A DNA stretch of 64,000 bases from Bacillota bacterium (GCA_021783135.1 JAJXUE010000002.1:36625-100624), one strand, 5' to 3'; shown: positions 307-36,023, counted from the first letter of the stretch. Numbers and translations: made by a program. The notes: generated from the sequence alone by a model not told the origin.

Positions 307-903
307 CTATTTCACTTTGCTATCCACAAAGAAAAGCATCGAGCGCTCATTCCCCAAGTTCACACCACCCTGAGGATTAGCTAGTATTCGCACCTGGAGC
401 TGATGTAAACCGGCGTTAGCATTATTGCCATTGGCATCGCCCAATACGGAAAACCTACCGAAATTTAAGTTCACTACACTGCCTGGCGTTATCTCTCGGA
501 GCATGCCTGTTCTTTTTACCGGATTTTGGCCTTCCAAATATAGCGTTACCTCAACCGGAATATTTTGCACAGTTTTATCACTGTTATTTTGCAAGCTTAC
601 CGTGGCCGTGAAATCTTTGCCTTGGAACAACTGCTGGGCCAAAAAGGGAATCCCCTCATAAGTAAGATCGCGCGTAACTGTTTTAGGGCTTAAAGCGATG
701 GAATTAATACTTATTTCCGGAATATCATTCTGAGAAAACGCCGCCTTATTCACTGTGTGCATTGATACTTGCCAGGTCGCCCAACTGGCTAGCGCCAACA
801 CCAGCACCAGACCGACAATACCAAGTTTTCTGCGGTCAACTACATATACCCGCCGCATACTACTACCTCTCCTCTCCACGCCCCCCGCTACTATATAGCA
901 CAA
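307..903 (-). CDS. Membrane-anchored protein of unknown function with a C-terminal beta-sandwich/CARDB-like region
   Basis: ORF with N-terminal TM anchor (LGIVGLVLVLALASWATWQV) and a secreted domain (ATVSLQNNSDKTVQNIPVEVTLYLEG). Confidence 0.6.
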   Translation of the reverse strand: MCYIVAGGVERRGSSMRRVYVVDRRKLGIVGLVLVLALASWATWQVSMHTVNKAAFSQNDIPEISINSIALSPKTVTRDLTYEGIPFLAQQLFQGKDFTATVSLQNNSDKTVQNIPVEVTLYLEGQNPVKRTGMLREITPGSVVNLNFGRFSVLGDANGNNANAGLHQLQVRILANPQGGVNLGNERSMLFFVDSKVK

Positions 904-1009: not shown

Positions 1010-1732
1010 TTAAAATTCATTGGCAAAAAATTGCTGAATCTTCTCGCGCATGTCGTCCGTATTTTGCACGAGCTGACCGTTAAATGTGTCTATCGGGGTA
1101 TCTTGCGGCATCGCAATGCTAAGCTTATCGCCGCTCGTGTTAAAATATGTAATATTAAATGAATTAATCAATGCTTTATTATGCTCCGTTTGTAGGCTTT
1201 GATCCGTAGTCATGGCAGCTTGCATTTTTTCCATTATGCAGCTCCACAAAAAGCCAACATTGCTGTCACCTTGGATAAAATCTGCGCCCTGGGTGAAATT
1301 TATCAGTGAATTATTTTTAAGGAATATCAGCAAGGTCAGGTTATTATTACTGTCCACGGTCAAAGCGCCGTCGTGTTTAATATCCTGCGTCGCATACAAG
1401 CTTCCCTGTTGTTCCGCGTAATCAATCCCAGCTCTTACCACAGGGACAAATTTGGTCAAGACGTCATCGTTGCCGGTACTCTGTCCATTTAAACCTACAA
1501 GTCTCTCGTTATCTGCAGGAGTAGTATTGCCTACTTTAACTGAAGGGCTGACCTCATTCTGATCGCCCTCGGTATTGGCTTGTACCGCTGACCCCGGGCT
1601 CGCGTAATCCGCTCTCCGGTTGAGGTCGGTAAAGATGGCCGTAGAACCGCCTACTACCAAGAGTACAATCAGCAAAAAGGACAAGTGTTTGGACTTTTTC
1701 TTACCTTTTTCTTTACTCACAATTTCCAGCAC
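1010..1732 (-). CDS. Membrane-anchored protein of unknown function
   Basis: ORF with N-terminal TM segment (HLSFLLIVLLVVGGSTAIF); in series with the secreted cytochrome genes. Confidence 0.55.
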   Translation of the reverse strand: MLEIVSKEKGKKKSKHLSFLLIVLLVVGGSTAIFTDLNRRADYASPGSAVQANTEGDQNEVSPSVKVGNTTPADNERLVGLNGQSTGNDDVLTKFVPVVRAGIDYAEQQGSLYATQDIKHDGALTVDSNNNLTLLIFLKNNSLINFTQGADFIQGDSNVGFLWSCIMEKMQAAMTTDQSLQTEHNKALINSFNITYFNTSGDKLSIAMPQDTPIDTFNGQLVQNTDDMREKIQQFFANEF

Positions 1733-1767: not shown

Positions 1768-3303
1768 CTAAGGCGTATAAGACTCAGTTACATGGTTATA
1801 ACTGTGACAGCTCAAGGTACAGGCCCAAGTACTGCTTGTTACCGAAAAGTAAATTGGTCCGGTGGTAGTTGACGTGGTACTTGCCGGTCTCGCCTGCCCT
1901 GACGGAAAGCCCACCATATTTGCTAAGTCCGGATTTTCGGCTGCCACCACCCCATGGGGTCTGTGACAATCGTAACATACGGCATTCCCGTAGCCATCTT
2001 GTTGGGCCTGAACTAGATGTAAGTAGTGCAGATCATGAATGGTAGAGCTTGTTGATGTCGTATAAAAGTCGGTGCTGTCGTTGTTTAAACCATTGCCGGC
2101 GGCAAGTTGAGTGGTTTGTTGCGTAGTGTAAGTGCTAAATTGAGTATGGCAAGCGGTACAAACTGTGAAATTGGCCGGGTTGTAAGCCACGGAACCGGTA
2201 GTTGTAGCATACTCTAAATCCTGCCCCGTACCGTTAGCTAAGAATAAATTAGGATTACTTGCCGCATTGCTATGCGGATCATGGCAATTTTGACAACTGA
2301 TAGGTGGAGTGGCAAAGGAACTCTGTCCATGTCCTGTTTGCGTATAAGGACTATTGGTCCCGCCGCCAAAGTAATCCGTGTCTGCTGCCTGTGAGCCATT
2401 ATGACAGACATCACACATGTCCGGTACACTCGTTTGCTGCAGCAAATTTTGCCCCTTAGCGCTATGGGCATTGTGACAAGTAGAGCACTGACCGGTAGCT
2501 ACAATATAATTGCCATGGGGATTGGAAGTTGCATATACACTCGTAGTGAACGACCATGTATACGCCTTTTCTAACTCAACGTTTAATGAACTTGTCACAC
2601 CTGTAGTAACAGTTACAGTGTATTTCGTATTGGGGGCATAGGTATAAGGGGATGTGCCCATAAGCACCGTCGCAGTATTTGTCGCAGTGTCATAACTTAC
2701 ACTGCTCGGACTGGTGTTATTCACCGTTATCCCATTTTGCAGGGTGGCTTGATTCATAGCCTGATTAAATCTTACCGTAATCGTATTCCCGCTACTGGTT
2801 TCAGCCGTACCTACGGTCTGTTCACCATTGGGCGGGCTAACAGAAATTACCGAAGGAGGGGTAGACACCGTCACAGTGGCAGTTGTGGATATCCCCACTT
2901 GAAGGTCATTGGTGTAGCCGATCAAAAAGTATTTATAGGCCGTACCATAAACCATACCATTACTGTCAACATACGCTAGTGGTTGGCCTGAAGATACAGT
3001 AGGAGCGGTGGTCAAAAATACATAATCATCATTACCGGGGCTTCTGTAAACCTCATAGGCAGTTATCCCCGTAGTATCCGGCCAACTCAAATCAACCTGC
3101 TTGTGCACATAATCCAAACTTGCGTTTAGGGAAGAATCTGCTAAGAAAGACAACTGGGGCTGACCTGTTAAGACCAAAGCATCGGCCTTGGCAGGATGAT
3201 AACTAATCACGCAACCGGCAATAATCAGCAATGCTAAAGCCAAAGCAAATTTGACCCAAGCGAAAATCCCTTTTCGTTTTACCGTCGCTATTAGTCGTTG
3301 CAT
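1768..3303 (-). CDS. Secreted multiheme c-type cytochrome with N-terminal fibronectin-III/Big_5-like domains
   Basis: Signal anchor; five CXXCH motifs (CSTCH, CDVCH, CQNCH, CTACH, CYDCH) and one CX3CH (CTLSCH); SD AGAGGTGA before ATG at 3303 (ORF track start is 3321). Confidence 0.85.
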   Translation of the reverse strand: MQRLIATVKRKGIFAWVKFALALALLIIAGCVISYHPAKADALVLTGQPQLSFLADSSLNASLDYVHKQVDLSWPDTTGITAYEVYRSPGNDDYVFLTTAPTVSSGQPLAYVDSNGMVYGTAYKYFLIGYTNDLQVGISTTATVTVSTPPSVISVSPPNGEQTVGTAETSSGNTITVRFNQAMNQATLQNGITVNNTSPSSVSYDTATNTATVLMGTSPYTYAPNTKYTVTVTTGVTSSLNVELEKAYTWSFTTSVYATSNPHGNYIVATGQCSTCHNAHSAKGQNLLQQTSVPDMCDVCHNGSQAADTDYFGGGTNSPYTQTGHGQSSFATPPISCQNCHDPHSNAASNPNLFLANGTGQDLEYATTTGSVAYNPANFTVCTACHTQFSTYTTQQTTQLAAGNGLNNDSTDFYTTSTSSTIHDLHYLHLVQAQQDGYGNAVCYDCHRPHGVVAAENPDLANMVGFPSGQARPASTTSTTTGPIYFSVTSSTWACTLSCHSYNHVTESYTP

Positions 3304-3330
3304 AAAATCACCTCTAACCACGCTAAGCTT

Positions 3331-4263
3331 TTATCCGCCATAGCCTAAAACTTGCACCCTATTATTGGCCCAATCGGCAATATAGATTCGGCCCTGTGCA
3401 CCTACAGTAATGCCGCAGGGAAACTGCAGTTGCGCCGCACCCTTGCCCGGTGCGCCGATAGTAAATAAGTTTTTACCCTGAACCGTCATAAACCGCACTT
3501 GTGAGGCACCGCTGTCGACCACGAGTAAGCGATCAAGGTTGTCTACGGCAATTCCGCGTAGAATATTGAAAGACCGATTGCTCTGGGCAGTGCCAGTAAT
3601 AGTGGTGGCCGCACCACTTGCTAAATCTATAAGCCGGACGAGGTTGTTCCCGGCATCTGCCACCGCCAATTTACCATTGATCATCGCCATACCTTGCGGA
3701 AAACTGAAGCCGGGGTTATAACTATGGAGTATTTGGCCTTGGAAATTTGCCGCCACCACCCTGTTCCCGGCTAAATCAGCAATAAACAGCTCATTTTTTG
3801 TGGCCAACAACATACCTGGTTTAATACCTAGCGAAGCTGGCAGAAAAATCTTAAGAAATTTGCCCTGCAGGCTATACTGCACAATCCGATGATTTAGCAT
3901 GTCGCTGACAAGAATTGTTCCATTCGGCAAAATCGCCAAGCCATACGGAGTTTTAAGTTCAAGTCCCGAGTTTTCCTGCTCCCCAAACGAGAACAGAAAT
4001 TTGCCCTTGGTGTTAAAAACCTGAACTTGATTATTGCCAGAGTCACTCACGTAGATACTGCCATTGTCGGCGATTGCTGTATCCATCGGGTGATTGAGCT
4101 GCACTAGGCCTCCATTAATTGTAAACAGGAGTTTAGGTACATCGGTTAGTTTGTGCGGCAAATGGGCATTACGCATGTTGACTATCAGCCAAACCAGACC
4201 GATTATCAGTACAATGGCTGCACTAGTCGCCACATAAGTGAGATTTCTTTTTTGCACTATCAT
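3331..4263 (-). CDS. NHL-repeat beta-propeller protein, membrane anchored
   Basis: Repeated NHL units (IYVSDSGNNQVQVFN, ILVSDMLNHRIVQYS, IYIADWANNRVQVLG); N-terminal TM. Confidence 0.85.
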   Translation of the reverse strand: MIVQKRNLTYVATSAAIVLIIGLVWLIVNMRNAHLPHKLTDVPKLLFTINGGLVQLNHPMDTAIADNGSIYVSDSGNNQVQVFNTKGKFLFSFGEQENSGLELKTPYGLAILPNGTILVSDMLNHRIVQYSLQGKFLKIFLPASLGIKPGMLLATKNELFIADLAGNRVVAANFQGQILHSYNPGFSFPQGMAMINGKLAVADAGNNLVRLIDLASGAATTITGTAQSNRSFNILRGIAVDNLDRLLVVDSGASQVRFMTVQGKNLFTIGAPGKGAAQLQFPCGITVGAQGRIYIADWANNRVQVLGYGG

Positions 4264-4306
4264 TAATCCTCAATATGTGAAATAATTCGTTAGCTTAAGG
4301 AGATGT

Positions 4307-5614
4307 TCATGGGGATAAAGTAAAGCTGTTAGCTCCTGCTGCCAGCGCATTGCCATTAAGGTCTTTAAGATTAGTGGCTGTGATTGTCAACGGCAGAGTA
4401 GCCGTACCGTTTATTTGCAGCAAAACCTGTTTACCCATCAAACCATTCGGTTCAAGCGAAGCGCTGACGACGGACAAGCCCGACTGCCCGCTCAACGCAT
4501 AATTACTTACCTTCTGCGCCTGCACGCTGTTCATGTAGGTGCTAAACGTCAAGATGGCATAAGTTACATTCTGCTGCGAATTTACCACTAAGTAGGAATC
4601 AGGACTTGACTCTGGCACCGGTGCTACAGTGCTGGGTGACAGGTTATGGCAGTTTTCACATACGCCGCGTTCATCCATCCTCAATAAAGTTGCCGGCCTA
4701 ACAGGAGCCGGAGGATCATATGTCGACGTTGCCACCATTACCGTCGTTCCATGGGCATAATGACACGTCAGACACGTAACGTTGCCAGAGGCCGTAGGCA
4801 ATGCAAAGTTTGTACCATTATAGCCTGTCGCTCCGCTCGCTGCCAAGTTATACCCGTTTTCGGCTACTGGATGCCGATATAAGCCTGTCGTATAAACACC
4901 GGTCGGACCGGTAGTTGTTTGCAGGTAATCCGTATGACAAGCGCCGCAAAAGTTGCTGATAGCACTGTTGTATGTCACGCTCTCACCAGTGGTCGTGTCC
5001 GTAACGTTAATTGTAACACTTGTACTGGTCGGGGTATAAAGCGTACTACTGGTAGTACTGATGGTTTCCCAAGTAGTCCCGTCAGGGCTAAGCACCGGAA
5101 CAACAGGAACCAACAAGCGGCTGTTACCTGTATCGCCATGCGGGTCATGGCAATTGACACAGGTCAGTTCAATTGCTCCATTCGCAGCTTGGCTCCCGCC
5201 GGGAATATTAACCCCTGAACCGTCCGGAGAGTCTACTATGTGTGAGGATGTCACTGGGGCCGTAGCAGCAACCCCTGGCGGGCCGCCAATTGTAGCCATG
5301 TTCTGAAAGCCCCCGGCAGGAGTGGGATATCGATCACCATTGCTCTCTAAAATTTGGCCGTCAACCTCGTCATATTTTGACCCTGTGCCGTCATGACAAA
5401 ATATGCACGTCCGATAAATATAATTTTGATTACCACTGGTCGTAAAGGCAAGCAAATTTGGCGCGTTAGCAGTGTGCGTGCGGTGGCATTGCGCGCAAGC
5501 AGCGGTGTTAGCAGTATAATTGCCGTGGGGACCGACATTATCTGCCAAGGCCGTTGCACCGGAGCACAACAGCAGTATTATTGCTAATCCTAGAATTTTG
5601 CCTAGTTTCCCCAT
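4307..5614 (-). CDS. Secreted hexaheme c-type cytochrome with C-terminal Big_5/Ig-like domain (OmcS-like heme order)
   Basis: Signal peptide MGKLGKILGLAIILLLCSGATALA; six CXXCH (CAQCH, CIFCH, CVNCH, CGACH, CLTCH, CENCH); SD AAAGGAGC before ATG at 5614. Confidence 0.88.
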   Translation of the reverse strand: MGKLGKILGLAIILLLCSGATALADNVGPHGNYTANTAACAQCHRTHTANAPNLLAFTTSGNQNYIYRTCIFCHDGTGSKYDEVDGQILESNGDRYPTPAGGFQNMATIGGPPGVAATAPVTSSHIVDSPDGSGVNIPGGSQAANGAIELTCVNCHDPHGDTGNSRLLVPVVPVLSPDGTTWETISTTSSTLYTPTSTSVTINVTDTTTGESVTYNSAISNFCGACHTDYLQTTTGPTGVYTTGLYRHPVAENGYNLAASGATGYNGTNFALPTASGNVTCLTCHYAHGTTVMVATSTYDPPAPVRPATLLRMDERGVCENCHNLSPSTVAPVPESSPDSYLVVNSQQNVTYAILTFSTYMNSVQAQKVSNYALSGQSGLSVVSASLEPNGLMGKQVLLQINGTATLPLTITATNLKDLNGNALAAGANSFTLSP

Positions 5615-5674
5615 TATAGAAGCTCCTTTTCGCTGCAATTAGACCTACTTTAAAACGCTGCTAAATTAGCAGGT

Positions 5675-6625
5675 TTAGCGGGCAAGCACAGATATCCGGC
5701 TATTCCCCGTTTCTGTTACATAAATACGGTTATTGGGATCAATAAAAATGCCGTTAGGCAACGAGAACTGACCATAAGCATCCCCGGTGACACCAAATTT
5801 CATCAGTGCTTCCCCGTTCGGCGCATAGACCTGAATCCTGTCAGCCAAACCGGAAACCACCCACAAATCACCGTTTTGATCAAAAGCTAATCCCCTCGGT
5901 GTCAGGATGTCCCCTTGACCGGAACTTTTTACGCCGATATACCTGATTACAACAGCTTTGGAGTTGTATACTACGATCCTGTTATTACCTGAATCAGACA
6001 CAAAAACCTTACCGAAGCTATCCACGGCAACACAATTAGGGAAGGTCAGTTGGCCTTGTTGCTCCCCATTGGCGCCAAACGATTGCAGCAAGCTCCCTTT
6101 CGAGTTGAATTCATACACCATATTGCGCTGAACATCTGCTACATACAAATTATTATTGGCAAAAGTAATGCCTGCCGGAGCAGCAAGTACGCCTACTTGT
6201 GTCGGAAACAACCCCACATAATGATCAAGTGCATCAAAAACATAAATCTTACCTGTTACCGTATCCGAGACAAATACGTATGAACCCTCAGTAGCCAAAC
6301 CATACGGTCGACCGAAACTGGCTTTGCCCGGTTTAAGATAGTGTTCGAATTTACCATTGTAATCAAACACTACCACCTTGCCCGTACCGGCATCTGCCAC
6401 ATATATTTGATCGTTGGCCACAATGACAGACATCGGACGATCCAAACTGTACCCGGGGTCATTATTAATAGCATACAAAAAATTAGGCGGCACAGTATAA
6501 TTCGCGGGGTCATCAGAGGTTGCGAAGGCCAATGGGCTTTGTTTAACAAAATAAAAATAGCCAAAAAATACAATGCCTACTATTACAATAGATGCCATCA
6601 TGCCTAAGAGCCTTCTTGCTTTCAT
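5675..6625 (-). CDS. NHL-repeat beta-propeller protein, membrane anchored
   Basis: NHL units (IYVADAGTGKVVVFD, VFVSDSGNNRIVVYN, IYVTETGNSRISVLA); N-terminal TM; SD GGAGG before ATG. Confidence 0.85.
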   Translation of the reverse strand: MKARRLLGMMASIVIVGIVFFGYFYFVKQSPLAFATSDDPANYTVPPNFLYAINNDPGYSLDRPMSVIVANDQIYVADAGTGKVVVFDYNGKFEHYLKPGKASFGRPYGLATEGSYVFVSDTVTGKIYVFDALDHYVGLFPTQVGVLAAPAGITFANNNLYVADVQRNMVYEFNSKGSLLQSFGANGEQQGQLTFPNCVAVDSFGKVFVSDSGNNRIVVYNSKAVVIRYIGVKSSGQGDILTPRGLAFDQNGDLWVVSGLADRIQVYAPNGEALMKFGVTGDAYGQFSLPNGIFIDPNNRIYVTETGNSRISVLAR

Positions 6626-6655: not shown

Positions 6656-7300
6656 TTAATTCAATGTCGCCAGGGCTTGCTTGACTCTCCGGTCGGCGGG
6701 GTTAAAACTAAGGGCCGAATTATACGCTGCTTTGGCTTTAGCCTTGTTGCCCATAGCCTGATAGGCTTGTCCCAATTGATAGAGTATGTCAACCTGTCCC
6801 GGTTCAAAGGTGTTGAGCAGTTCAAACTCCTGCACCGCTAACTTGTCTTCGCCCAATTGCCGATATAAAGCACCCAAAGTGGCTCTGACAGACCAGTATT
6901 TGGGGTCCACCCGTTGCAGTGATTCCAAGTCAGTTTTAGCATCCTGTAAATCACCCGTTTGAATTTTAACCAGATCAATATTATACCTGGCAACCTCATT
7001 ACCCGGGTCCAACTGCAATACCATTTGGTACTGAGCAAGTGCCTGGACATAATCATTGTCTTTCACATACTGCCAACCAAGATTTAAATGCGCGTCTACA
7101 CTGCCCGGACTGTCCTTAACTTGCGTCACAGCTACTCTTAAATCATGCGCAGCCTTGCTTTCATGGTCATATACGTTCCAAAAGAAAAGATATCCGACGG
7201 ATAAGCCAATTCCGATTACCAAAGCGAGAGTCGCAAGCAACAAACCCACGGCGACAGACGGCTTGACTGTCTTTGTAGCCGCTCCCGAAAATTTCAGCAT
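6656..7300 (-). CDS. Membrane-anchored TPR protein
   Basis: TPR signatures (VDAHLNLGWQYVKDNDYVQALAQYQMVLQLDPGN); SD GGAGGGAGCC immediately before ATG at 7300 (ORF extends to 7381). Confidence 0.82.
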   Translation of the reverse strand: MLKFSGAATKTVKPSVAVGLLLATLALVIGIGLSVGYLFFWNVYDHESKAAHDLRVAVTQVKDSPGSVDAHLNLGWQYVKDNDYVQALAQYQMVLQLDPGNEVARYNIDLVKIQTGDLQDAKTDLESLQRVDPKYWSVRATLGALYRQLGEDKLAVQEFELLNTFEPGQVDILYQLGQAYQAMGNKAKAKAAYNSALSFNPADRRVKQALATLN

Positions 7301-7538
7301 GGCTCCCTCCACTAACTTTTTAACGTCAGTCGGTAACTCCGAGCTATCATTGTGAACTGGTTCACTTTTGCAAGCAACCACAAAGAGCCATAAAACTTTA
7401 AATTAATTTTACTTACCTACATTTTATCATATTTTTGGTGGACGCATAAATTTTTTTTATGTAATATATTGTAATATGAATGGCAAAAATGACATATTTA
7501 GTAAAGGTGTCATGATTTTCAAGTGAATTAAATTACCC

Positions 7539-31294: not shown

Positions 31295-32668
31295 TTACTT
31301 CATTAATTGGGTAACTGCGTTTACAGAGTAAGCGCCGTCTTCTTTGTCGTGACAAGCTTCGCAAACACCCATGTTTGGAAGACGTTTCAGACGGGAGCTA
31401 CCAGCAGTTTCAGCTGAGTTGTAAGCAGCAATTCCGGAAGTAGTTGCACTTATAGCCCAACGACTTTGGTCAACACCATGAGCAAAGTGGCAGGTTAAGC
31501 AAGTAACAGTATTTGCTTGTGCAGTTTGACCATGATCTGTGTAGCTTTGGAATTTCAAGGTTCCGGCAGGAATAGCGCCAAAGAACTGATAGCCAACGGC
31601 GTGACGGGTATGTTGACTATAAGTACCGTTGAGATTGCTTACCGAGGTATTACCACCTGGAAGATTTGTTGTGGCTAAATAGATAGCCTCTGTATCATAG
31701 TCAGTGTGGCATGCGCCGCAGAAGGTATTGATACCATAGTTGTAAGAAACTGTTTCTGCAGACGTGAGTTTATTCGCAATCGTAAAGTTTACTTGGAGTA
31801 CCGGAGTAAATATGGCAGTAACAGTATCAGTCGGACTACTGGAGCCTTGAATACCCCAAACTACAGGAACTGTAGTGTCGGTACTAAAGCGAAGTTTAAT
31901 TGTGCTGTTTGTGGTTCCACCATCCTTGAAAGTTACACCATACGGGTATCCGAGTATCGGACGTTCAGAAGCGGGGAACACCCAGCCAGAATTAGTTCCA
32001 TCAATTGTAGTGCTCCAAGTTAATGTAATGGTAGTAGTAGAGTTAACATCGTTCGGGTCTGGAGTAAGAATACGGGAATTACCACCTTGACCGTGCGGTG
32101 AATGGCAAGATGTGCAGTCGAAAGTTCCATCCCAACTACCATTGGAGTCAGCAGTAGCAGTTGTTGCACCACCGAAAGCAGCTCCGCCGATAGTTAAGCC
32201 GCTGAATACGTTGTGTTGGGAAGCACTGTCAGCCGTAGCTTGTGCGCCGTCTTTGTAGATTGCAAACAGACCACCGTTGCTAGGAGTAGAAGTGTTACCA
32301 ACAGTACCATTAACTACGTTATAAGTAGCGGTAACTGTGCCATCATGGCAAGCGAGGCAGACGTTCGTCAAGCCAGCACTATTGCTGAAGGTATCCCATT
32401 GGGTCAAAGAATCACCGTTCGCGGTGTGAGGTGCGTGACAAGCAGCGCAAGCATCAGTGTTGGCTGTGTAGTTACTATGAATTGCAGCGTAGCCAGGTGC
32501 ACCGCCACTACCTGGTGGCAAATAAATTTGGCCAGTAGCGCCCATTGAATAGGTACCGTCAGCACTAATACCAGCATTGTTCGGATGGCTAATGTCGGCG
32601 AGAGCAACTGCTGAAAAAGCGCCGACCATTACCAGAGCGAGAACCAAAATAAGACTTAATTTTTTCAC
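31295..32668 (-). CDS. Secreted hexaheme c-type cytochrome (OmcS-like heme order)
   Basis: Signal peptide (M/V)KKLSLILVLALVMVGAFSAVALA; six CXXCH (CAACH, CLACH, CTSCH, CGACH, CLTCH, CEACH). GTG at 32668 has SD GGAGGG; ORF track start 32719 also has an SD-like AAGGGGG. Confidence 0.88.
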   Translation of the reverse strand: MKKLSLILVLALVMVGAFSAVALADISHPNNAGISADGTYSMGATGQIYLPPGSGGAPGYAAIHSNYTANTDACAACHAPHTANGDSLTQWDTFSNSAGLTNVCLACHDGTVTATYNVVNGTVGNTSTPSNGGLFAIYKDGAQATADSASQHNVFSGLTIGGAAFGGATTATADSNGSWDGTFDCTSCHSPHGQGGNSRILTPDPNDVNSTTTITLTWSTTIDGTNSGWVFPASERPILGYPYGVTFKDGGTTNSTIKLRFSTDTTVPVVWGIQGSSSPTDTVTAIFTPVLQVNFTIANKLTSAETVSYNYGINTFCGACHTDYDTEAIYLATTNLPGGNTSVSNLNGTYSQHTRHAVGYQFFGAIPAGTLKFQSYTDHGQTAQANTVTCLTCHFAHGVDQSRWAISATTSGIAAYNSAETAGSSRLKRLPNMGVCEACHDKEDGAYSVNAVTQLMK

Positions 32669-32814
32669 TTTTTTTCCCTCCATATGTGTGCTTTTGGATA
32701 TTAGCGATTGATGTCTCATACATACACCCCCTTTCTGAGACTAATTGGGCTAATATAGTAAAGTGGATATTCCACAGTTACCCTGGAGGAAGGTTTTATG
32801 TAAGGGTCTATCAG

Positions 32815-33821
32815 TTAATTTTGATAGACCATGATCCGCTGATTCATGGAGTCCGCAATATAAATTCGACCTTCCGGGTCAACACACAATCCATCCGGCA
32901 AGGCAAACTGGTTATTAGCATCCCCTAAGGAGCCAAACGGTGTATACGCTCTGGCATACTTAGTGGTATCAAATCCATACACCATATCCGTCAGGTTGCT
33001 GACCACATACAGCGTACCCCTTCCGTCAACCGCAATACCGCGCGTATTGACAAAAGCAGACTGGGTCTGACCCGGGTTGCCGTTAATTATCGCCTGGAAC
33101 TTACCGCTCGGGTCAAAAGCTTCTACCCGGTCATTGCCGGTATCCGAAACATAGATATGGCTAGGCGTAACTGTAACAAAATTAGGCGATTGAAACTGCC
33201 CCGGACCCGCGCCACGTGTGCCGAACTGCAAAACTTTTTTGCCATTAGAATCAAAAGCAAATACTTGGTTTTTATCCACATCCGTCACATAGAGCCTACT
33301 GTTATAGAAGAATAACCCTGCCGGCTTTTGTAACGTTTTAGAACTGGTACTGACAAAGTCTCTCACAAACTTCCCTGATGAAGTGAATACTTGAATATTG
33401 CTGTTGTAAAGATCTGCCACATATACTAAACCATTATTGTCAACCGCAATACCGTAGGGAAATTGGAATTGCCCATGACCTGTACCTTGCGTGCCAAAAG
33501 TATATAAAGGATGCCCGTCATAGTCAAACACCACCACGCGCTTGTTATTGGTATCGGTCACATAAATCTGACGGTTGTAGTAAGCAACACCCATCGGCTT
33601 ATTAAGCGGCCCCACTGTGCCACTGCCGTACATACCAAATAAAGGTGTGGGCTGGGTTACGGGACCAATATTGTTCGATATAATACCAGTCAAACTCTGA
33701 CCCTTGATGAAAAATAACCGAATATCGCGGCTAAGGCCACAAAACTGATGACTATCGCGAACCTAAGCTGCTTTACGCTAATTTGACGCTGGCTTACTTG
33801 CGGCGAATTGACATTTGCCAT
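32815..33821 (-). CDS. NHL-repeat beta-propeller protein; apparent frameshift separates the TM anchor from the propeller
   Basis: ORF 32815-33693 encodes NHL units; upstream ATG at 33821 encodes MANVNSPQVSQRQISVKQLRFAIVISFVALAAIFGYF in another frame; one extra T in the T5 run at 33710-33714 restores a single ORF. Confidence 0.78.
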
Positions 33822-33887: not shown

Positions 33888-34595
33888 CTATTTGTTGAGA
33901 AGTTTACCTACACGAGCATAAGCTTGCTGTGCCTCGGTGTACTTAGGATCAAAATTTATCGCTGCCTGGTATTGCAAATATGCGTCCTTATAATCTTTTT
34001 GTTGCTCGTATATATAGCCTTTCCAGTACATACTCTCCGGGTCACCTGGGTCATACTTGTAGGCTAATGCTAACTCTTGCATCGCTGGTTGATATTCTTT
34101 GATTTTAGCATACGACACTCCGAGATTAAGGTGCGGCGGTGCAGTATTGGACGCAATTGCAATAGCTGCTTTAAGTTCGACAATCGCCCTATCCCACTGT
34201 TGCTGACTCATATACGCTAACCCAAGGTCATAATCTGCTGCATAGTTTTTCGGATCCAGCGACAAAGCTTGCTTGTACTGAGCCTCGGCTTGATCATACT
34301 GTTTTGCCAAGAAGTAACTCCAGCCCAGTTGCACGTGAGTTTCCGGGTCGTTGGGATTACTCTGAACTGCCGCCTGGTTCTGGGCAAGTTGGTTTTGCGT
34401 ATAGGTCAACTTATTGTAATTGTCCCAGAAGAACAATTTTCCCACACCAACTCCTACAGCGGCAAAAATGGCAATAAATACAACAAGAATGACTATAGCC
34501 TTAACTAAAGAAACCCCTTCATTCTTGGTTTGGTTCTCAGGTTGCACTGGGCCGCCCGTTTCTGGTTGAGACGGTGCCATGCTTACATCGGACAT
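33888..34595 (-). CDS. Membrane-anchored TPR protein
   Basis: TPR motifs (PETHVQLGWSYFLAKQYDQAEAQYKQALSLDPKN), N-terminal TM; SD AAAGGAGGAG. Confidence 0.87.
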   Translation of the reverse strand: MSDVSMAPSQPETGGPVQPENQTKNEGVSLVKAIVILVVFIAIFAAVGVGVGKLFFWDNYNKLTYTQNQLAQNQAAVQSNPNDPETHVQLGWSYFLAKQYDQAEAQYKQALSLDPKNYAADYDLGLAYMSQQQWDRAIVELKAAIAIASNTAPPHLNLGVSYAKIKEYQPAMQELALAYKYDPGDPESMYWKGYIYEQQKDYKDAYLQYQAAINFDPKYTEAQQAYARVGKLLNK

Positions 34596-34648: not shown

Positions 34649-35755
34649 TTAATGTCGCGGCACTGCGTGACACACCAAACAGCCTGAAGAACTGTGACAT
34701 TGAAAGCACATTGCCTCCAAGCCGGTAGGCGGAATTGTCACTGGATGGCTTTGTTCAAGTTGCTCCGTATGAGTGTTATTGTGACATTTCATACAAATGA
34801 TTGTGCTCGGAGCATTATCTGACGAACTGTCGCCGTCCTCATCATGGCACACCAAGCAACCTGCCTTGTCTGTCTTAGCAAAGTTTTCGTGATCTTTCTT
34901 CCAATACGCATCGTAGTGGCTAAGCGGTTCCTTCGCGTGGCAAGTATTGCAAAAGGTGTTTGCTCTGGCATACGTTGCTGCGGTCAATTCCGTTGGAGCA
35001 TAGTCACCTAAATTCGAGGTGTTGGCGTGACATTTGTCACAAGCGGCCACATTTTGCTCCGCTAGCTTACCGTGCTCACTCAGCCAATTTAGACTGGTGT
35101 GATTAGCCGGTTTCACAATTTTGGTATGACAAGTTTCACACGTGACCGGTGCATTCCCGTCCTCATGACAGGAGATGCATACATTCATGGAAATCTTACT
35201 GAACCCGGCATCGATGTACGCCTTGCCAACTACGGCATTCCATTTATCATAATTCGTTAAAGCCGTAAAACCTTTTTCTTCGATATTTCCATGTGCAATT
35301 CCACTATGACAATCCACGCAGTTAACCCCGTTAGCCAAGTGAGTCAGATGGGGAAACTTGATATCTCCTGGGGCATTAGTAATCCTATTGTCCATGTTGT
35401 GGCACTGTTCGCAGGTCGAGTTAGGAATAGGTTCTGTCAATGATATTGGTTTAGGAAACGTCCCGGTTACATGAAAATAAAGTTGCTGCAATGATTCAAC
35501 CTTGTGCTCTAACTCATTTTTCAAACCCGGTTTAACGTGGCAATCTACACAAGGTATCTTGCTGTGCGACGATGCCATCCACGTGTAGTATTCGGGGCTC
35601 ATCTCGTGACACAAGGAGCAAAATACCGGAGTATTACTAATTACCAAAGCTCCGGCGCTAAGTGTGACTAATAGAATTGCCGAACCGGAAACTAGAATCA
35701 GCACTTTAAGCTTGCCTTCGGTGGTTGCGAATAGAGCCTTCAAACGTTTGAGCAT
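34649..35755 (-). CDS. NapC/NirT-like dodecaheme c-type cytochrome, membrane anchored
   Basis: N-terminal TM then CSLCHEMSPEYYTWMASSHSKIPCVDCHVKPG; twelve CXXCH motifs counted. Confidence 0.88.
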   Translation of the reverse strand: MLKRLKALFATTEGKLKVLILVSGSAILLVTLSAGALVISNTPVFCSLCHEMSPEYYTWMASSHSKIPCVDCHVKPGLKNELEHKVESLQQLYFHVTGTFPKPISLTEPIPNSTCEQCHNMDNRITNAPGDIKFPHLTHLANGVNCVDCHSGIAHGNIEEKGFTALTNYDKWNAVVGKAYIDAGFSKISMNVCISCHEDGNAPVTCETCHTKIVKPANHTSLNWLSEHGKLAEQNVAACDKCHANTSNLGDYAPTELTAATYARANTFCNTCHAKEPLSHYDAYWKKDHENFAKTDKAGCLVCHDEDGDSSSDNAPSTIICMKCHNNTHTEQLEQSHPVTIPPTGLEAMCFQCHSSSGCLVCHAVPRH

Positions 35756-36023
35756 TTTTTCACCTTCAATTACGCGCAACTACTCGACCCACCTGTTAAA
35801 TTCTCGCGCTTCTTTAAGGTATACTGGTTTAATTTGCGCCTGCTCTCCTACATTTACTTTCTACATGAACATCCTTTTTCCTTCTTTTATTTCCTTTTAA
35901 TCTGGCTTTTTTGATTATTTTGTGTCTTCTATGGCTACGAGCACCAATAATACCCTACAGTATTTCTTATTCGACTTCGATTGGCAATTTCCTACTCGAA
36001 AAATGCTTTTGTGCAAAATTTAA

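Follow-up and report, generated by a model that had tools for sequence, protein, structure and literature searches.

Hexaheme cytochromes with and without immunoglobulin-like domains, and a possible Ig-headed partner, in a candidate electron transfer locus of a Bacillota bacterium

The window analysed here, a stretch of 64,000 nucleotides from a Bacillota bacterium (GCA_021783135.1 JAJXUE010000002.1:36625-100624) within which all coordinates are counted, carries three multiheme cytochrome genes, called 31295, 4307 and 1768 after their lowest coordinates (Table 1). The three open reading frames (ORFs) lie on the minus strand at the positions given in a preliminary description of this DNA, which had noted immunoglobulin (Ig)-like domains at opposite ends of two of the proteins and had proposed a division of labour between a polymerising subunit and terminal, capping or anchoring subunits; the domain layouts are real and long conserved, and the earlier observation is confirmed in part. 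The window is best explained overall, with a probability of roughly 0.55, as a Gram-positive locus for extracellular electron transfer in which cytochromes of two kinds are encoded. The 31295 and 4307 proteins would likely stack head to tail as subunits of a wire that takes electrons through the cell wall or past it; the Big_5 domain of the 4307 protein, on a flexible tail at the heme-6 pole, would most likely be a projecting spacer or binding arm that leaves the subunit stackable. The 1768 protein would be a partner distinct from these: a short heme rod of MtrA/DmsE-like type whose heme-1 end is closely joined to an FN3-Big_5 stalk, and whose gene takes a slot held by larger Ig-headed multiheme cytochromes in relatives. 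Domain orders, homologies, gene order and ligand conservation are observed in the sequences, while polymerisation, passage through the wall and a spacer or stalk function of the Ig domains are deduced. For electron passage through the thick wall of metal-reducing Gram-positive bacteria, an OmcS-like wire (CwcA) has been proposed but not seen.

Matches to the heme-motif pattern TGYN6TGYCAY numbered 48 in the window, compared to 5.0 expected in shuffles. The 31295 and 4307 proteins contain six CxxCH motifs each, and the former, which has no Ig domain, is indeed the bare hexaheme cytochrome of the preliminary description. Against a hexaheme profile made from cores only, they scored 395.7 bits (31295) and 276.0 bits (4307), values that are favoured by the presence of both proteins among the rows that built the profile. 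Among solved structures, a profile of 17 aligned hexahemes, taken from the window and relatives, matched OmcS (6ef8; E=3.4e-18), over hemes 1-5, and OmcE (E=5.8e-6); the 4307 protein as a single query matched OmcS at E=0.0013. All twelve histidines, six in the heme motifs and six distal, are present in both proteins, and they were near-invariant across 76 cores, in bare forms, forms with a C-terminal Big_5 domain (C-Big_5) and forms with an N-terminal FN3-like domain (N-FN3) alike. By homology, the two proteins have one core of the OmcS/CwcA-type family, which was matched at E < 1e-30 in 28 of 398 genomes of a phylum-wide draw. OmcS of Geobacter sulfurreducens (6ef8, 6nef) has the six CxxCH motifs and distal histidines in the same order; it differs in its Gram-negative origin and its lack of an Ig domain, and is a poor fit to the 1768 protein. 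A third bare hexaheme gene occurs on another contig of the same genome (L010:8307-9758, contig C4), without an NHL/TPR cassette; its neighbours encode a histidine kinase-like and a cyclic-nucleotide-binding/CBS-like protein.

In OmcS, eleven axial heme ligands come from the subunit itself and one from its neighbour, the hemes are stacked in the order of the sequence, and those that are exposed lie close to the interface between subunits (PMC6584659). Since the fused forms keep every histidine, neither fusion has lost the subunit-bridging ligand known from OmcS. This ligand is presumably the histidine of the heme-1 CxxCHxxH motif; the argument does not depend on this assignment, all twelve being kept. 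The stack order also implies that the two termini lie near different poles, the N-terminus by heme 1 and the C-terminus by heme 6; domains fused to them should, by homology, be found near opposite poles. According to the accessible part of its description, CwcA of Thermincola (Tfer_0075 / TherJR_1122), an OmcS homolog modelled on OmcS, has been proposed to polymerise or stack through the peptidoglycan wall; this Gram-positive hexaheme is the closest described counterpart of the 31295 protein, and no Ig fusion is mentioned in that part (PMC7911101). The kinship with CwcA is drawn via OmcS and genomic context, not via CwcA's own sequence. The OmcS homology and the CwcA proposal make the polymerising role that the preliminary description had suggested plausible for the hexaheme core; filament formation itself is something that we infer.

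The Big_5-like domain (PF13205) said to follow the hemes of the 4307 protein is made probable by relatives (their loci carry L codes, and their taxonomy is given as relatedness only; ORF starts in them were set mechanically). Queried alone, the 4307 domain remains below the gathering cut-off (E=0.005; 18.0 vs. 23.6 bits), which is passed by its ortholog L053:9720-11042 (36.4 bits, 9e-9) and by two proteins of its clade that belong to other families (L117, 32.1 bits, 2e-7; L116, 24.6 bits, 4e-5). The Pro-, Ser- and Thr-rich tether that precedes the domain comprises ca. 10-20 residues, and no histidine is conserved in the Big_5 extensions; on these features, the C-terminal domain resembles a projecting arm of a subunit that can stack more than it does a plug.

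In a 77-row tree, six of the seven C-Big_5 hexahemes formed one clade (SH-aLRT, the Shimodaira-Hasegawa-like approximate likelihood ratio test, 96) that includes at least three families, and L129, the seventh, seems to have gained its domain independently; N-FN3 hexahemes (18 rows) account for two changes on the tree and clustered apart from C-Big_5. The C-terminal labels come from inspection of the extensions, of which five out of seven matched Big_5 in Pfam; the N-terminal FN3 labels follow a linker motif and are partly a pattern call, since the short N-terminal domains of the hexahemes gave no Pfam match, whereas longer heads do show fn3. Both fusion types are found repeatedly next to bare hexahemes, in loci of one type. 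The single C-Big_5 clade and the separate N-FN3-like group make distinct, old and conserved roles for the two fusion types likely, and to this extent the proposed division of labour survives; its capping and anchoring components do not find support, as discussed below.

Among the three cytochromes, 1768 probably departs from the common hexaheme core that the preliminary description had assumed for all. It has five CxxCH motifs and one CxxxCH motif (CTLSCH), and the hexaheme-core profile scored it at 59.5 bits in three pieces; hmmalign placed only its first three hemes on that core, and its branch in the 77-row tree measured 5.7 changes per column. The core profile of Ig-headed multiheme cytochromes gave 50.1 bits. 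BLAST searches with the 1768 heme region retrieved first a 1516-residue, 14-heme, FN3/Big_5-headed protein (E=4e-19) and next a headless 9-heme protein (3e-18) from one and the same locus (G083), followed by an FN3-like-headed 8-heme protein at 1e-13; hexahemes ranked well below. The C-terminal module CxxCHRPHG..ENP..VGFP..CxLxCHxxxH is common to the 1768 protein and both G083 proteins. The best relatives of the 1768 protein are mostly FN3/Big_5-headed cytochromes with 7-31 hemes, a family that was defined here from relatives and not from the literature, and in which some members lack the head or the CxxxCH motif; the 1768 protein has its FN3/Big_5 head, its doubled CxxCH repeats, its CxxxCH as last motif and its place after a second NHL gene. 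The view of the three cytochromes as versions of one hexaheme was rejected on the partial profile fit, the long branch and the better relatives of the 1768 protein. Its core probably differs from that of the 4307 and 31295 proteins, and the best reading of its six hemes is a shortened form of a rod that varies in length and is mostly Ig-headed; a hexaheme that has diverged strongly is the less probable alternative.

For the multiheme relatives of the 1768 protein, the nearest solved structure was MtrA (6r2q chain A; E=1e-6 and 7e-5) in the MtrCAB complex (PMC12203936), and similarity to the NCBIfam DmsE-type decahemes reached E=1.6e-25 within this family, below the cut-off; the 1768 protein itself obtained 31.7 bits against TIGR03508, where the cut-off is 192.2, which indicates resemblance only. 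MtrA/DmsE-type decahemes are thus the nearest solved relatives of its apparent family, which differs from them in its sub-threshold NCBIfam scores, its variable heme number, its Ig/FN3 head, the CxxxCH as last motif of several members, and, in the genome studied here, the lack of Omp85. Neither Omp85 nor SLH domains were found in the genome, which fits a monoderm cell. Ahead of the 1768 hemes, the Big_5 domain expected from the preliminary description is clear (52.1 bits vs. a gathering threshold of 23.6) and ends 8 residues before the first distal histidine, a tight junction; the FN3-like part is recognised by sequence pattern and predicted strands, and a Pfam search found neither fn3 (PF00041) nor any other family above cut-off in it. 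The non-motif histidines of the 1768 protein outnumber the needs of its six hemes, one of them lying after the last motif. A lipobox-like IAGC in its signal region (residues 34-37 in the 517-residue numbering) is a possible lipid anchor.

The gene neighbourhoods are conserved as well. A cassette of NapC-like 12-heme cytochrome, TPR protein, NHL protein and hexaheme recurs phylum-wide, and in several loci it is longer, with another NHL gene, in many cases a hexaheme bearing an N-terminal FN3-like tag, and an Ig/FN3-headed multiheme cytochrome (with up to ca. 30 hemes). The 1768 gene occupies the last position of the recurring order NapC-like, TPR, NHL, hexaheme, NHL, Ig-headed cytochrome. In another family, locus L116 repeats the order of the window (TPR, NHL, C-Big_5 hexaheme, NHL, Big_5-headed cytochrome), and L053 shows the order TPR, NHL, C-Big_5 hexaheme, NHL, Ig-headed cytochrome with further genes. 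The 4307 and 31295 genes belong to separate cassettes, ca. 26 kb apart. In the accessible part of their description, the extracellular electron transfer clusters of Dethiobacter alkaliphilus likewise contain NHL and TPR genes beside multiheme cytochromes; that part mentions neither Ig-tagged hexahemes nor a fixed order of the cassette (PMC10376724). Searches of open-access papers found no description of Ig-tagged OmcS-type hexahemes, which is weak evidence of novelty. Elsewhere in the genome, a 1196-residue protein with a long head of Ig-like repeats and eight hemes (L009:10093-13683, contig C62) is encoded convergently with another NapC-TPR-NHL-hexaheme cassette; L051:13334-15694 encodes a relative of smaller size.

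Related 11- to 12-heme proteins form a clade in which a hexaheme is fused C-terminally to a half resembling the OcwA/OmhA terminal reductases (E=4.3e-38; solved structures 6i5b and 6qvm), a module that does not occur in the window proteins. The phylum-wide cassette would come with natural fusions that mark either pole, FN3-like domains at heme 1 and a Big_5 domain or a terminal-reductase-like half at heme 6; they are ready constructs for testing polymerisation, its direction, and the wire ends. The proteins of this clade (L093-L113, e.g., L098:4653-7400) look like natural wire-to-reductase fusions.

Table 1. Cytochrome genes, their domains and heme motifs, and neighbouring genes in the window.
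Feature	Position	Strand	Remarks
FN3-like + Big_5 + six-heme cytochrome (1768)	1768..3321	-	517 aa from GTG; 511 aa with ATG start (3303); seemingly a short representative of a multiheme family with mostly Ig/FN3 heads
FN3-like region of 1768	2866..3144 (approximate limits)	-	Sequence pattern; beta strands in low-confidence model; no Pfam family
Big_5 of 1768	2542..2865	-	Residues 153-260 of 517; Pfam PF13205, E=1.2e-13
Six heme motifs of 1768	1804..2487	-	CxxCH 2487-2473, 2415-2401, 2295-2281, 2160-2146, 1977-1963; CxxxCH 1821-1804, then extra His
OmcS/CwcA-type hexaheme cytochrome with C-terminal Big_5 (4307)	4307..5638	-	435 aa from ATG at 5614
Six CxxCH of 4307	4646..5497	-	5497-5483, 5407-5393, 5161-5147, 4948-4934, 4774-4760, 4660-4646; six distal His all present
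C-terminal extension of 4307	4310..4645	-	Pro/Ser/Thr-rich tether, then Big_5-like Ig domain; Pfam E=0.005; model mostly beta, local pLDDT (predicted local distance difference test) ~52-79
Bare OmcS/CwcA-type hexaheme cytochrome (31295)	31295..32719	-	
TPR protein, first gene of cassette	6656..7381	-	N-terminal hydrophobic segment
NHL beta-propeller protein	5675..6625	-	Upstream of C-Big_5 hexaheme
NHL beta-propeller protein	3331..4263	-	Between 4307 and 1768 cytochromes
Secreted or anchored protein	1010..1732	-	No Pfam family; 35 bases after 1768 gene
Small protein	307..903	-	N-terminal hydrophobic segment; weak Ig-like (Transglut_C) similarity
NapC/NrfH-like 12-heme membrane cytochrome, second cassette	34649..35779	-	Likely quinol-side electron entry
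TPR protein, second cassette	33888..34595	-	
NHL protein, second cassette	32815..33693	-	

Several points weigh against a locus of wire subunits and a partner rod. Polymerisation is read here from sequence, which cannot show it, and no filament has been seen for these proteins; even in Geobacter, the physiological role of OmcS filaments is disputed, to judge from the accessible part of one account (PMC11077965). The AlphaFold2 models of the 4307 and 1768 proteins, computed from only 3 and 4 sequences, respectively (mean pLDDT 36.5 and 40.5; heme regions unusable), are too poor for placing any Ig domain, and Foldseek searches with them gave no match at E < 0.001, only weak Ig and S-layer-like matches. 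Finally, neither core profile fits the 1768 heme region well, the two scores being similarly low (59.5 and 50.1 bits), and the region resembles the hexaheme core as well in its motif order, a threefold H..CxxCHxxH..CxxCH.

One alternative dispenses with polymers: both cytochromes would be monomeric wall-side relays, and the Ig domains generic extracellular decoration without a specific role. The very varied fusions of this family, with N-terminal extensions of 522-1732 residues in L121, L125, L122, L132 and L112, are compatible with such decoration; yet the two main architectures are phylogenetically stable and not scattered, and the OmcS homology and the complete ligand conservation speak for wire subunits, so that we consider a purely monomeric relay unlikely.

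The Ig domains could also attach the cytochromes to the peptidoglycan, to glycans of the wall or to an S-layer. Surface and wall proteins often carry Big_5 and FN3 domains; SbsC and EA1, both from S-layers, are among the weak fold matches, a region for glycan synthesis separates the two cassettes, and the IAGC of the 1768 protein would permit a lipid anchor. However, all structure matches fell short of E 0.001, and the IAGC may be due to chance; by inspection, none was seen in the signal regions of five Ig-headed relatives. Pfam identified no known wall-binding domain, all three cytochromes lack LPXTG, and no SLH domain occurs in the whole genome; on the latter two absences, anchoring by SLH or LPXTG was rejected. 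The wall- or surface-anchoring role of the preliminary description is not supported by these results, and anchoring or adhesion in general appears improbable.

Capping, also part of the preliminary description, would require that the bare hexaheme polymerises and that the Ig-tagged cytochromes close opposite wire poles, or dock the wire to base and tip. The OmcS stack order (PMC6584659) would indeed bring N- and C-terminal fusions near opposite poles; the N-terminal domains are tightly joined, 8 residues separating Big_5 from the first distal histidine in the 1768 protein, which has spare non-motif histidines, one after the last motif, and need not borrow one; the architectures are old and found together with bare hexahemes; and the OcwA/OmhA-like half of the related clade demonstrates that the heme-6 end can bear a terminal module. 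Yet the 1768 protein probably has a different core, no ligand is missing from the C-Big_5 and N-FN3 hexahemes, the one that crosses subunits included, the C-terminal Big_5 sits on a tether and has no conserved histidine that could replace the neighbour's ligand, and the 4307 and 31295 genes are not in the same cassette. Blocking would be geometrically easier for an N-terminal head than for the C-terminal Big_5; capping by Ig-fused subunits is not supported and seems rather unlikely. Quite doubtful is a polarity reading in which headed proteins like 1768 form the membrane-side base and C-Big_5 hexahemes such as 4307 the outward tip; if true, the position of the tag would set the start and end of a wall-crossing cytochrome wire.

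Relatives of these genes were not found among viral contigs. The interval between the two cytochrome cassettes (7539-31119) is occupied by a long run of glycosyltransferase-like and polysaccharide genes; OmcS and OmcE filaments have been reported to be glycosylated (PMC9473688). The small anchored proteins encoded at 307-903 and L052:7137-7724 look similar, show weak Ig-like similarity, and lie downstream in both C-Big_5 hexaheme loci. Finally, in two of the relatives with long N-terminal extensions the hexaheme core closes the protein: in L112:2648-10138 it follows 1732 residues, and in L132:2431-6918 the first heme is preceded by 1220 residues with FG-GAP repeats.

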